A stretch of 64,000 nt of DNA from Chlamydoabsidia padenii. Lineage: Eukaryota; Mucoromycota; Mucoromycetes; Mucorales; Cunninghamellaceae. The DNA lies in NCBI GenBank assembly GCA_025330725.1, contig JAIWND010000027.1:248001-312000 (forward strand), in the 5' to 3' direction. Below are positions 11,350-35,299 of the stretch, one piece after another; the first letter of the stretch is position 1; each line of letters begins with the position of its first letter. Made by a program: the position numbers and the translations under genes. A model generated the notes under the pieces. The model did no database searches. It saw only the letters and a list, made by a program, of their open reading frames with translations, and was not told the DNA's origin.

Positions 11350-14300
11350 ATGAATACTCCAGAAGCTTACCAGACATTACAAGAATGTTTGAAGCAAACA
11401 TTGGATCCTCATACTCGAAAGAATGGTAAGATATATAAAACGTCATGATCAAAAAAAAATGTCTTTCCTTGAACCTCCACTAACATGATATTCTTTCCAT
11501 AGCTGAACATACTTTGGCGCAAGCAGAAGTTCAACCTGGCTTCTCTTTGGCATTACTACAACTCATTGCCGATGTGAATGTTGATCAAACCTTACGCTTC
11601 ACAGGTGCTGTTTACTTTAAGAACTATATTAAACGAAACTGGGTACCTGTAAGTTATTGGTCCTTTTTGGGTGGCATAGTTTACTAATATCTCCTTCTTT
11701 CATATATATATATAGGACAATGAAAACTCTGATAACATTTCCGCTGAAGATCGTCGTACTATCAAAACTCAGATTGTCCAACTGATGATCAGCGTCCCCG
11801 AACGAACCCAATTGCAAATCAGTGACGCTCTAAGCATTATGGCTGCTGAAGATTTTCCTCAAAACTGGGAATCATTAATGCCCGTAAGTAACAGACAAAC
11901 TAACTAGAAAGGACGACAAGACACTAAAAGACTTTTATAATGTTGAATCTATAGGAATTGACCAGCAAGCTTAGCGACACGGATTACAAGACGAACAATG
12001 GTATTCTGCAAACAGCTCACTCTATCTTTAAAAAGTAAGCTACCAACCATTATCTGTATCAACCTACTAACTGATTGACTCTCTATCATTATAGGTGGAG
12101 ATCTCAATTCCGCTCTGACGAACTATTCAAGGAAATCCTCTATGTGTTGGAACAGTTTGCACCAAAGTACTTGGCCTTATTCCAGGTAACATATAAAAAA
12201 AAAGAAAAGTGCGCAGCTCCCCTCGAATCCAGTGATCCATTGACTAAAATTGATTACCCCTTCTTCCTTCAAAAAATAGATCACCGACAAGTTGATGACA
12301 GAAAATAGAACAAATGCTGAAGCCGTGGCCATCCTCTCTCAATCCATGATTTTATTGATCAAGATCTATTATGACCTCAATTATCAAGACTTTCCCGAAT
12401 TCTTTGAAGACAACCTTGGTACTTTTAGCGAACTATTTAAAAAATATTTAACGTATGACAATCCTCTTTTGGCTACTACCGTAAGTACAATACAGCAGAT
12501 GAAAGAAAGGGCAATATAGACAGACAACTAACAAATCTGCTTTTTCATTTTTACCTTAATAGGATGAAGATGAAGCTGGACCTTTGGAAAAGATTAAGAC
12601 CGGAATCTGCGAAATCGTCGAACTTTACACCCAAAAATACGTTGAAGACTTCCCTCAACTTGCGGAATTCTTGCCCATCATCTTTAATTTGATCACTACT
12701 GCTAGTCAAGAAGCGAAACATGATACAGTAAGTTTTTGTGGATAAAAAGTGGAGCATCCTCTGGCTAAATTCTTCTTCTTTGTAGATGGTGTGCAAGGCT
12801 CTTGGTGTCCTTACTTCCGTGGCCAAGGTGGATGCTCATGTTGCTGTGTTTTCCTCTGAAGACACTATTGCCAAGCTGGCCTTGCCCAACATTGCAATGC
12901 GAAGTAAGAGGGGATTAAAAAAAAAAAAAAAAAAAAAAAAAGTGAATCTATACCAAAGATCGACATTAACAATCTCTTTTTGATTTATAGCCAGTGACGA
13001 AGAATTGTATGAAGATAATCCGATTGAATATATTCGACGGGATTTGGAAGGTTCAGGTAGGTTTGAATGGATTAAAAAAAAAAGTCGGAATGAAATACTA
13101 ACAATCATCTCGGTGGGGGGGGTTATTCATAGATCATGATACTAGACGTCGTGCTGCTGCAGACTTTATTCGTGGATTACTGGAGAGGTTTGAAGCACAA
13201 GTAACCGGTATTATATCTCACTATATCAACCTTTACTTGGAGGTAAGTTAGCTTGGAAAAGATATTTGGGCACTAACACATGTCATTATTACATCACGCT
13301 TTGTGTAGAACTACAAGACCAACCCTCAACAAAATTGGAAAGACAAGAACACCGCCATTTTCTTGTTGGTGGCCATTTCAGCCCGTGGTGCGACCAGTCA
13401 AGTATGAAAAAAAAAAAAATGATGATCATTGGAATGGGATCATTTTACTCATTATTTTTTATTTATTTATACATATACTTCTAGCTTGGTGTTACCAAAA
13501 CGAATTCTCTGGTGGATATTGTGGACTTTTTTTCCAAAAACATTCTCTCTGATCTACAAAGTGATGTTAACGCTGGTGTCCCCATTCTCAAGATGGATGC
13601 TATCAAGTTCTTGTACACCTTCCGAAACCAGGCAAGTACTAATCTATCAATACTAATATAACAGAAAACTAACCCGTTGATTCTATTATAGCTGACCAAA
13701 GAACAATTACTCACTGTCTTCCCTCTCTTGGTCAAACACCTCCAATCTACTGACTATGTTGTCCACACTTATGCTGCCATCGCTATTGAACGCATATTGG
13801 TGATTCGTCAAGGAAAGGAATTGTTGTAAGTTGCATAAATGTATTGTACTTTGTCATACTCACGCTTTTTTGTTTAGATTCACTCCCGAAGATATCAAGC
13901 CTTACACCGAGACTTTGCTCTCTGAACTATTCCGTCTAATTGAAAGTGGCCAAACACCCGAGAAGCTTTCTGAAAACGATTACCTCATGAAAAGTAAGTA
14001 CCTCTTCAAACTCACCAGCATTTGATGGCTAATATCTTTTTTTATAACATCACCACTTAGCTGTCTTCCGTGTGATCACTACTGGTCGCAAGGACATGGT
14101 ACCTTATGTGAATGTCATCATGGGCAAATTGACTAATATTATGGCTGTTGTTAGCAAGAACCCAAGTAATCCCAAATTTGATCACTTTGTATTTGAAAGT
14201 ATTGGTGCTTTGATCAAGTAAGTACAGGCAAAAGCTGTGACGAAACTCTCATTAACTCTTTTCTTTGCTTTATAGATACATTTGCCCTGTCTCTGACCAA

Positions 14301-32287: not shown

Positions 32288-33572
32288 ATGTCCACTGGAC
32301 TTGGAGGTATGTTTACTCTATCAACAAAAAACAAAACTATTTATTCTTTTATTCACTTGTGACTAATGGAACCTCTCTCTGTCTCTTATCAATACAGGAT
32401 TCCGCAATACTCCTGTCACTAAAGTATTGGTTGCTTTTATCGGCGGATGCTCAGCTGCCTCTTCTCTATTTGAAGCCAATCGAGTGTCTATCCAACATCC
32501 AGTAAGTAAACCATTGTCTGGTGATGATAACCAAATATATTTATGCATTTCCTTTCATTTAGCTATGGCGACTGGGTTCGTCTCAGTGGGTATTTACAGA
32601 CATTGGATCAACTGTGGTAGGGACTTGGCTAATATACAAACTGCGTATCATTGAACGACGCTATGGTAGCTCAAAATTTGCGGTAAGAAGAAGAGGGGGG
32701 GAGGGCGCAAGTGAATGGGATACTAACCTGTGATAATAGGCATTGGTATTTAGCTCATTTGCATTATCAAGCTTACTTCATCAAGTAGCCACTACCCTCT
32801 TTGGTACCTCCACTGCCAATGGCCCGTAAGTGATAATATGAAGACGAATGAATGGTAGACTCATTATAAATTATTATTTTTTTAGATACGCCCTGCTGTT
32901 TGCTATTTTATACCAATATCACTTTATTGTGCCTCCCACTCAGCAAATGCCTGTCTTAATGAACATGACCATCACTGATCATTTTTACGTTTATGCAGCT
33001 GCGATTCAGGTAAGAAGGAAAGTGGGGGAGGGGGGTATTTATACAATACATCATCTAATGTGGGCCTAGTTATTGTTATCACGATTCCCGTCGTCCATCT
33101 TACCATGTCAATTCGGTATACTGATCGGGGCTATATATAACTGGAACCTGGGAAATATCCAACAATGGCGATTCCCAGCACGAATCCGATCCTTTTTATC
33201 AACCTACCTTCTTCCTATTCTCAGTACATCGACTCAACAACAACAACAACAACAACCTACTCGACTACCTAGATCATCTTCTCGGCCATCATCATCATCA
33301 TCATCTAGTCATCCTCCTATCCGACGACGTAACGTACCTGACCAAGTGGATGTAAGAAACAAAAATAATCTTTCTCTTACCTAATGACTAACCCATATAT
33401 ATTTATATAGTTACCTCCATCTACTGAAAATATTGATACTTTGATTTCCATGTTTCCTGATTATTCAAGAGACATGATTGTGAATGCCTTGGTATCTTCA
33501 AGACATGATTTGAATCGGGCGGCTGAAACTCTATTGACAACTACACCTTCTTCCTCGGCGGCAATAGGATAG
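32288..33572 (+). CDS. DSC2: DSC E3 ligase complex subunit 2 / UBAC2-like rhomboid pseudoprotease with UBA domain
   Basis: The start is the ATG at 32288 (MSTGLG), spliced to GFRNTPVTKVLVAFIGG; the stop TAG is at 33570-33572. It has about six exons and 290 residues. The membrane part has several helices: VTKVLVAFIGGCSAASSLF, VFTDIGSTVVGTWLIYKL, ALVFSSFALSSLLHQVATTL, and YALLFAILYQYHFIVPP. It lacks the rhomboid catalytic Ser/His pair that I could recognise. After a polyGln/Ser linker, the C terminus is a UBA domain (DTLISMFPDYSRDMIVNALV, then HDLNRAAETLL). This order is that of UBAC2/Dsc2, part of the Golgi/ER Dsc ubiquitin ligase that activates SREBP in fungi and degrades membrane proteins. 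Its head-to-head GT15 neighbour is also a Golgi protein. Confidence 0.85.
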
Positions 33573-33778
33573 TATAGATCTTATAAATAAAATAAAAAGG
33601 ATCGGCTTTTTATGGGTAAAGGACCCTTCATTGGCGGGTATTAAAATTCCTCGGTCAAGGCGAAAAAAAAAAAAAAAAATTTTTTGTGCTGGCTCTGAAA
33701 ACATGTTTATAAACAATCTTTTTTTTTTTTTTTTTCTACTCGCTCTCTCTTTCTTCCACTTTACATTATATACACAAT

Positions 33779-34422
33779 ATGGTAAGTTTGTTCTTGTACA
33801 TTCCTTGTCTTTATACTAATCATTACCTCTTTCTAGTCTGTCAATCCTCGTGCTTTCCCTCTTGCTGATGCTACCTTGACCAACACCATTCTTGATCTTG
33901 TCCAACAAGCCGCCCACTACAAGCAATTGAAGAAGGGTGCTAACGAAGCCACCAAGACTCTTAACCGTGGTATCTCTGAATTCATTGTTATGGCTGGTAA
34001 GTACAACACTATTAAACCTTTTGGTCGAAGGGGGTAGAGAGATACAAAGGATGAAAATGTTACCTACTATCGAAGATTGGATCTCTTTAAAGAAATCTTT
34101 CTAATGATCATGATATCGATTAGTCTTTCTGAAGTATCTCCCTTCCCCCCAACCAACATGATGACAATAAAAGGATCTTACTAACTAATCCTTTTATATA
34201 TATATAGCTGATGCTGAACCTCTTGAAATCTTGTTGCATCTTCCCTTGTTGTGTGAAGACAAGAACGTGCCTTATGTGTTTGTGCCCTCCAAGACCGCTC
34301 TCGGTCGTGCCTGTGGTGTCAGTCGCTCTGTGATCTCTACCTCCATTACTACCAACGAAGCCTCCGACTTGAAGCCTCAAATCCTCTCCATCAAGAACCA
34401 AATCGAAAAATTGTTGATCTAG
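33779..34422 (+). CDS. SNU13: SNU13 (15.5K/NHP2L1) L7Ae-family snoRNP and U4 snRNP protein
   Basis: Three exons: 33779-33781 (the ATG alone), 33837-33996 and 34208-34422, encoding 125 residues; GT..AG borders hold. Snu13 binds kink-turns in U4 snRNA and in box C/D snoRNAs and starts assembly of the methylation snoRNP. Conserved sequence includes [40 protein letters not shown], the L7Ae-type [39 protein letters not shown] and [10 protein letters not shown]. The second intron (211 nt) is about three times longer than its neighbours and contains a box C/D snoRNA candidate (34039-34140). A GGCGGGTATTAAAATTCC word lies about 145 bp upstream. Confidence 0.96.
34039..34140 (+). ncRNA. Box C/D snoRNA inside SNU13 intron 2
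   Basis: A perfect 7-bp terminal stem, GAGATAC (34039-34045) with GTATCTC (34134-34140), encloses box C AGGATGA (34048-34054, one mismatch to RTGATGA) and box D CTGA (34129-34132). An internal C'-like ATGATCA is at 34104-34110. The 13 nt directly before box D, TCGATTAGTCTTT, are exactly complementary to AAAGACTAATCGA, a stretch I recall from the near-universal LSU rRNA segment GGCGAAAGACTAATCGAACC. By the box D plus five rule the methylated base would be the A of AAAG-A-CTAATCG. Size (about 100 nt) and intronic sense orientation fit processed intronic snoRNAs. What is seen is the boxes, stem and guide; expression is inferred. Confidence 0.82.
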
Positions 34423-35299
34423 ATCTAGTCATAGTTTAATCCCTTACCCCCTCATCTTTTCTTAATGATCGAAGTCTAGTGCTGACACCTTTTTTTTATT
34501 TATTTTTACATCTTTTATTTTATTTTATCCATCTCCTCCCTTTATATAGTTTTATGACTTTGGTTACATGATGCACTGACAAAGAGAAAGAAAAACTCAT
34601 TTGTATATTTCTTCAATCTCATTCCCAGTGTAAATAAAAATCATTACTATTCATCTTTATATAAACTAGTAGTGGTCTTTTGTCGGGATGTAAATATTTT
34701 TGACACATCAACTCAAAAAAAAAAAAAAGTGTGTGTGTGCGGGGTTTGCATCTTCTGGCGGGGTATGAATACTCGAGGGGGGAAACCATGGGGTTGTCAT
34801 TTCCTTTTTGTCTTGATACAACCCCCTCTATACCAAACACCTTGGTAGTGATGCCCCGATGGTGGTTGGTTGGTAAAGAGTGTTTGGAATACTAGGCATC
34901 CACCCTGAAGCAACCTGTCATCTTTAGAAGGAGTGTTTTTTCGGGGTGTGAAAATCAAAATAAGGTTGTTGAAAAAAAAAAAACACATGTCATTAATCAA
35001 AAAAAGAAGTATCCAGATGGCACCAATGAATGGTTCTATTTATTGGGATGGGTTATTTTTTATTCTCTAAAGAAGTAATAGGTACAAATATAGTTGGAAA
35101 AAGAAGGGAGTTCATTTCAATGGTGCACTTCTTTTTTATCAAGTAAAAATGAGGTTACCTAAAAAAGCGGAAAGGGGGCTAAAAATACATTTTGACTTTA
35201 TATAAGGGCGCGACAAAAAAGAAAAGAAAAAAAGTTTTTTTTTCTTCTTCTCTTTCTTCTTCTTCTTCTTCTTCATCATACCCCCTCCATCTTAATAAT
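34423..35299. other. Intergenic, about 0.9 kb; several promoter-word copies and a CTT repeat
   Basis: It holds GTGCGGGGTTTGCATC (34737), GGCGGGGTATGAATAC (34757), CGGGGTGTGAAAATC (34943) and an imperfect (CTT)n repeat at about 35241-35275 just before the next start codon. TTGTCTTGATACAACCCC is part of a run of short inverted segments with no clear element. No gene is seen. Confidence 0.45.

Follow-up and report, generated by a model that had tools for sequence, protein, structure and literature searches.

Does the second intron of SNU13, a gene of the Mucorales mould Chlamydoabsidia padenii whose protein binds box C/D small nucleolar RNAs (snoRNAs), itself carry such an RNA, and which ribosomal nucleotide would that RNA address? 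The gene lies in a stretch of 64,000 nucleotides (nt), hereafter the window, which is G000:C20:248001-312000 of a 34.2 Mb assembly in 95 contigs. We conclude from the sequence that SNU13 intron 2 very probably encodes a box C/D guide for ribosomal RNA (rRNA) methylation. The anatomy of this snoRNA, its host, its exact complement in the organism's own 25S rRNA, the register of its target and the rarity of the combination by chance were all established here. The features on which the argument rests, all on the plus strand, are as follows.

33779 to 34424, plus strand: coding part of the host gene SNU13, with exons 33779-33781, 33837-33996 and 34208-34424
33997 to 34207, plus strand: host intron 2, 211 nt, GTAAGT...TATAG; reading it as an intron yields full-length Snu13
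34030 to 34037, plus strand: 5' arm of an outer extension of the stem, paired with 34142-34149
34039 to 34045, plus strand: 5' arm of the terminal stem, GAGATAC, pair probability 0.99-1.0 in the intron ensemble
34048 to 34054, plus strand: box C, AGGATGA, six of seven positions as in RUGAUGA, with a mismatch at position 2 (G for U)
34104 to 34110, plus strand: possible box C', ATGATCA, one mismatch
34116 to 34128, plus strand: guide TCGATTAGTCTTT, 13 nt, zero gap to box D, perfect complement of AAAGACTAATCGA in the own 25S rRNA
34129 to 34132, plus strand: box D, CTGA, exact
34134 to 34140, plus strand: 3' arm of the terminal stem, GTATCTC, forming seven perfect pairs with GAGATAC
34142 to 34149, plus strand: 3' arm of the outer extension, paired with 34030-34037
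34179 to 34185, plus strand: branch-point sequence TACTAAC, inside the 11-nt loop of a perfect 10-bp hairpin

An earlier note on this DNA had proposed the terminal stem, box C, a C'-like box, box D and the guide on the plus strand, and a check of the sequence found each of them at the place given. The same note had described the intron as longer than its neighbours, which agrees with our measurements: intron 2 has 211 nt, against 55 nt for SNU13 intron 1 and 59 nt for an intron of the neighbouring gene (33352-33410, delimited by eye). Outward from the terminal stem, two and then five more pairs follow, interrupted by two mismatches, with pair probabilities of 0.86-0.97 in the ensemble of the whole intron. 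Just before the 3' splice site, the arms of the branch-point hairpin occupy 34167-34176 and 34188-34197; in the same ensemble, the probability of being unpaired is 0.87-1.0 for the bases of TACTAAC and 0.64-0.94 for the 5' splice site. On this folding model, the stems may bring the splice signals together, so that the 211-nt intron would act like its short neighbours, and the C/D motif may be pre-formed for Snu13. The snoRNA is separated from the 5' splice site by 42 nt and from the 3' splice site by 67 nt. Since intronic snoRNAs of Neurospora crassa mainly lie 41-60 nt from the 5' splice site (PMC2780460, in excerpt), the spacing at SNU13 fits that of intronic snoRNAs.

The guide was compared with the organism's own rRNA. 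The ribosomal DNA (rDNA) is on contig C90, and because its 25S sequence reads GCGAAAGACTAATCGAACC, the complementarity of the 13 nt before box D is complete; including the first base of box D lengthens the antisense run to 14 nt. With its 13 nt the guide falls within the 10-21 nt expected of antisense elements next to D or D'. The large-subunit rRNA segment that the earlier note had named is thus present in this genome. All rRNA scans reported here cover 18S, 5.8S and the first 2,025 nt of 25S, so guides to the remaining 25S would be missed by them, and within this range the snoRNA has no other Watson-Crick run of at least 10 nt. Once G-U pairs are allowed, the snoRNA can also pair with 18S in four runs of 11-15 nt; each relies on G-U pairs, all but one overlap a C or D box, and none was accepted as a guide. 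Two pattern searches of the assembly failed to recover the 3' part of 25S, to which a guide upstream of a box D' could be directed. Contig C90 (G000:C90; L003, L004) holds two 18S and two 5.8S genes, with 5S genes on the opposite strand; of its two 25S copies, one is cut by the contig end and the other matches model positions 24-358 only.

By the rule that the methylated nucleotide pairs at the fifth position from box D (D+5), the predicted target is the last A of AAAGA, the equivalent of Saccharomyces cerevisiae 25S A917, which is the A in AAAG-A-CTAATCG that the earlier note had singled out. The numbering was obtained by seeking the offset at which known yeast sites, taken from an excerpted table of PMC8307265, fall on the right base. 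Only one of the 290 offsets tried fits Gm805, Am807, Am817, Am876 and Gm908, and at that offset Gm867 and Um898 also fit, making seven of seven. Gm908 is 9 nt upstream of the target, which makes the target A917. Two other placements of the yeast sites (Gm805, Am807 and Am817 within the target stretch, and a second variant) were dropped, the second having failed the base checks.

The register agrees with the genome's own snR60 homologue, whose D guide puts Gm908 at +5. This snR60/U80 locus (L005, L025; G000:C1:340122-340133, minus strand) matches RF00309 at 46.0 bits against 41 required, carries an 18-nt D guide to Gm908 and is apparently intronic (GTAAGA upstream and TATATAG downstream, by eye). 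Like the SNU13-intron RNA, it is a box C/D RNA with a D guide on an overlapping 25S segment; it differs in having Gm908, nine nucleotides from A917, at +5 and in being another sequence at another locus. For RF00309 (snR60), no match is listed in the window or in the SNU13 intron region.

After the target had been computed, it came to light that this specificity has been described. The N. crassa snoRNA CD39, a 73-nt intronic RNA from a complementary DNA library, is assigned to 26S-Am897 with 13 mismatch-free pairs, G-U pairs included; it has a homologue in Schizosaccharomyces pombe, snR83, and none in S. cerevisiae, Arabidopsis or human (PMC2780460, Table 1). The same table gives the snR60 site as N. 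crassa Gm888, the counterpart of S. cerevisiae Gm908. Because Am897 lies 9 nt after Gm888, as A917 lies after Gm908, N. crassa Am897 corresponds to yeast A917. In the excerpted text of PMC2780460, the assignment of Am897 to CD39 is a base-pairing prediction. Other lists lack the position: as far as the excerpted tables go, the yeast list has no 2'-O-methyl between Gm908 and Am1133 (PMC8307265), the Arabidopsis list has none between Gm917, which equals yeast Gm908, and Am945 (PMC11542601, Table 2), and a further list passes from G917 to A945 with nothing between (PMC8053127, Table 1). Human sites are given in PMC11542601 Table 2, in the part consulted, only where plants share them, so methylation in human remains compatible with it.

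CD39/snR83 and the SNU13-intron RNA are alike in being intronic, in having the A917 equivalent as predicted target and in pairing over 13 positions without mismatch. They differ in size and build, CD39 having 73 nt and a second guide (Am375), as against about 100 nt for the SNU13-intron RNA. Because the position of the guide also differs (D at SNU13, D' in CD39), a convergent origin of the two guides is possible. The overall reading in the earlier note is supported in part. The intronic, sense-strand C/D candidate in SNU13 stands, with its 13-nt guide and its target; the coupling of host and guest that the note proposed is a possibility. The guide specificity is not new, CD39/snR83 being known; what is unusual here is the host gene only.

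The identity of that host is well supported, as the earlier note had held. The spliced exons translate into a protein of 125 amino acids with a Pfam L7Ae domain (92.5 bits), whose top matches in the PDB are yeast Snu13 and human 15.5K; the product is 100% identical to the annotated C. padenii protein P0001 and 99% identical to a protein of Absidia repens. The genome contains at least 12 L7Ae-family matches, a lower bound as are all counts of this search, and two of them are the two SNU13 exons. Five of the eight other L7Ae loci fetched align with SNU13 at 32-41% identity and three give no alignment; two weak matches, of 34 profile positions each, lay outside the fetched set. Among the L7Ae loci examined there is no second SNU13-like place, and SNU13 is apparently single-copy in this genome. 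The copy numbers of the C/D core proteins look uneven beside it, with five Nop-domain and three fibrillarin places. A search for SNU13 in viral contigs gave no match, and one in prokaryote contigs gave a single piece (residues 62-125 at 73%; L020), which stands at the very start of a contig labelled as a gammaproteobacterial MAG (metagenome-assembled genome) and was not used. The first coding exon of SNU13 consists of the ATG alone, directly followed by the 55-nt intron (33779-33836). Just upstream of the gene, an A-run and a T-run at 33661-33736 could make a long A/T hairpin, and this stretch underlies weak matches to microRNA families.

We found no report of a snoRNA within a SNU13 intron, in a search of open-licence literature only, which is weak evidence of absence; the portions consulted of PMC10234308, PMC10324135, PMC7671301 and PMC5122169 do not name SNU13 as a snoRNA host. 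Other genes for proteins of small nucleolar ribonucleoproteins (snoRNPs), for example human NOP58, host snoRNAs. In human, SNORD86 lies in an intron of NOP56 and feeds back on NOP56 splicing (PMC11028025 and PMC10324135, in excerpt). The two cases share a C/D core-protein gene with a C/D snoRNA in one of its introns; unlike the SNU13-intron RNA, which has a clear rRNA guide, SNORD86 is an orphan that acts in cis, and its host is NOP56. NOP56/SNORD86 is a close precedent, and the kind of host is apt but not unprecedented. An overlapping architecture of coding and non-coding genes has also been described, in the excerpted text of PMC1821038, for a Drosophila pseudouridine synthase gene. A more distant likeness is offered by archaeal L7Ae, a relative of Snu13 that, in an excerpted account, binds a kink-turn in the leader of its own messenger RNA (mRNA): in both cases a protein of the Snu13/L7Ae family has a kink-turn in its own transcript, the archaeal one in the 5' leader and acting on translation, that of SNU13 in an intronic snoRNA.

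Whether genes for C/D proteins commonly act as hosts in this genome was examined by scanning five Nop-domain places (one with only 3.6 kb), left unsorted among NOP56, NOP58 and PRP31, and three fibrillarin places (both sets together on G000:C12, C15, C59 and C56; L007-L011, L026-L031). None of them has a CTGA with a D-adjacent guide of at least 11 nt to the rRNA scanned. A looser scan, requiring an internal antisense run of at least 11 nt, a box C with at most one mismatch and a stem of at least 3 bp, gave matches at five places outside the window and the snR60 homologue, which we took as chance: three are A/G-rich low-complexity runs (L021/L007, L017 and L025/L005), one is within a Nop-domain coding sequence (L024/L010) and one is antisense to a neighbour's open reading frame (L023). 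Because the Nop-domain and fibrillarin places lack a comparable guest within the limits of these scans, we see no sign that C/D-protein genes of this genome generally act as hosts.

Could an ordinary structured intron show these boxes and this rRNA match by coincidence? As a model of chance we used 60 first-order Markov copies of the window, read on both strands, with the guide 0-1 nt from box D. Single elements are not rare under this model: an antisense run of at least 13 nt occurs at one of the 379 CTGA sites in the window against 0.1 expected, and a box C with at most one mismatch, a CTGA and a stem of at least 7 bp occur together once against 0.28 expected. The joint simulation of box C, CTGA, a stem of at least 4 bp and a guide of at least 11 nt gives 0.033 expected against the one observed. 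At the candidate's own values about 7e-5 such events are expected per window and about 0.04 over the 34 Mb genome, by arithmetic from the simulated rates that takes the two stricter events as independent over about 380 CTGA sites and uses stricter thresholds chosen after the candidate was seen. By this arithmetic, chance would not be expected to produce the combination of boxes, stem and guide in either the window or the 34 Mb genome. The window holds one 10-nt guide with a 4-bp stem at 11578-11732 (plus strand), probably background, a further CTGA with an 11-nt run (minus strand), and, in the looser scan, three other places with an internal 11-nt antisense run; the minus-strand places of that scan are weakly C/D-like, with antisense runs of 10-11 nt to rRNA, and are probably background too. 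A further 91,058 bases from elsewhere in this genome hold a single CTGA with an antisense run of at least 11 nt, that of the snR60 homologue. Twelve nucleotides of the guide, CGATTAGTCTTT, occur at 10 places in the genome, one in the rDNA and nine elsewhere, and only the place in the SNU13 intron, one of the nine, has a CTGA within 108 nt downstream; upstream of three of the remaining eight, a box C-like heptamer lies within 150 nt. This check counted exact CTGA only. Although the commonness of single elements and the post hoc thresholds leave coincidence some room, the joint rate, together with the fact that the predicted nucleotide had already been assigned to a fungal snoRNA, makes it barely credible.

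Several observations weigh against a working guide RNA. Position 2 of box C, where this RNA deviates, is the flipped-out U that is read by 15.5K/Snu13. The possible C' is imperfect, and neither a convincing D' nor a D' guide to the rRNA scanned was found in the snoRNA. The intron folds modestly below its shuffles, 5 of 200 of which fold equally well (z of about -2.2). An Rfam scan of the window gave no family at gathering score, the best snoRNA match being RF00353 at 25.4 bits against 45 needed (E 0.57), and the 12 weak Rfam matches in 33600-34600, up to E 10 and none at gathering score, were dismissed. The guide of CD39, finally, is in the D' position, whereas that of the SNU13 intron is at D. 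The box C mismatch, the imperfect C', the missing D', the lack of an Rfam family and the guide position unlike that of CD39 together leave room for a decayed snoRNA, that is, a former guide with a damaged box C that no longer accumulates, in an intron that stays long by inertia. Deviant boxes are indeed a minority in N. crassa, where 86% of cases show strong conservation of the C and D boxes; the C' and D' boxes of that species likewise lack conservation (PMC2780460, in excerpt). Decay would be expected to hit the guide, box D and the stem, and it is therefore disfavoured by what is intact: the guide over 13 nt, box D and the 7-bp stem, all perfect, and a strong outer stem. Nor does the genome hold another exact 12-nt copy of the guide with a CTGA nearby. 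We regard decay as very improbable. A further proposal would add to a working guide rather than replace it, namely that the kink-turn of the snoRNA also senses Snu13, such that free Snu13, by binding the C/D motif of the nascent intron, alters splicing or decay of the SNU13 pre-mRNA. It draws on the fact that SNU13 encodes the very protein that binds such guests, on SNORD86 in NOP56 and the archaeal L7Ae leader as precedents, on the long stable stem between the splice sites of intron 2, and on Snu13 being also a protein of the U4 small nuclear ribonucleoprotein, as the PDB molecule names have it. On the other side, no alternative splice form was noticed, no systematic search for one having been made, and ordinary hosting accounts for everything seen. 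A switch in which the guide would pair with the branch-point region is not supported: the 7-bp pairing is no better than that of shuffled guides, 267 of 1000 of which match or exceed it, and about 22 kcal/mol are lost when it is imposed. Sensing of this kind seems unlikely. Its fullest form, a two-way coupling in which the intron would supply a working 25S guide and a kink-turn that senses the Snu13 supply, linking expression, intron removal and snoRNP demand, we hold to be distinctly unlikely.

The reading that we prefer is thus a working box C/D guide in SNU13 intron 2, and its expected course can be set out. Splicing and debranching would release the intron. Snu13 would bind the closed C/D kink-turn, and about 100 nt (near 34039-34140) would be shielded from exonucleases while the ends are trimmed. 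The mature particle would contain Snu13, Nop56, Nop58 and Nop1, with the 13 nt upstream of box D pairing with 25S, and would 2'-O-methylate the A that corresponds to A917 in S. cerevisiae 25S. Transcription, processing, protein binding and methylation of this RNA we infer from its sequence. The dependence on splicing is supported for a fungus by snR107, an intronic C/D RNA of fission yeast, since its methylation is absent when splicing of the host is defective (PMC11971394, in excerpt). The simplest explanation for SNU13 as the host is selection that favours co-expression with genes for ribosome biogenesis.

These findings add a box C/D guide candidate from a Mucorales mould. If the reading is true, the predicted A917 methylation, which we know from two Ascomycota only, would extend to another fungal phylum, and its presence in two phyla could mean either an old fungal site that was lost in budding yeast or convergence. 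SNU13 would also be a further gene for a C/D core protein that hosts a C/D snoRNA, and would offer a compact case in which feedback between host and guest may be studied.
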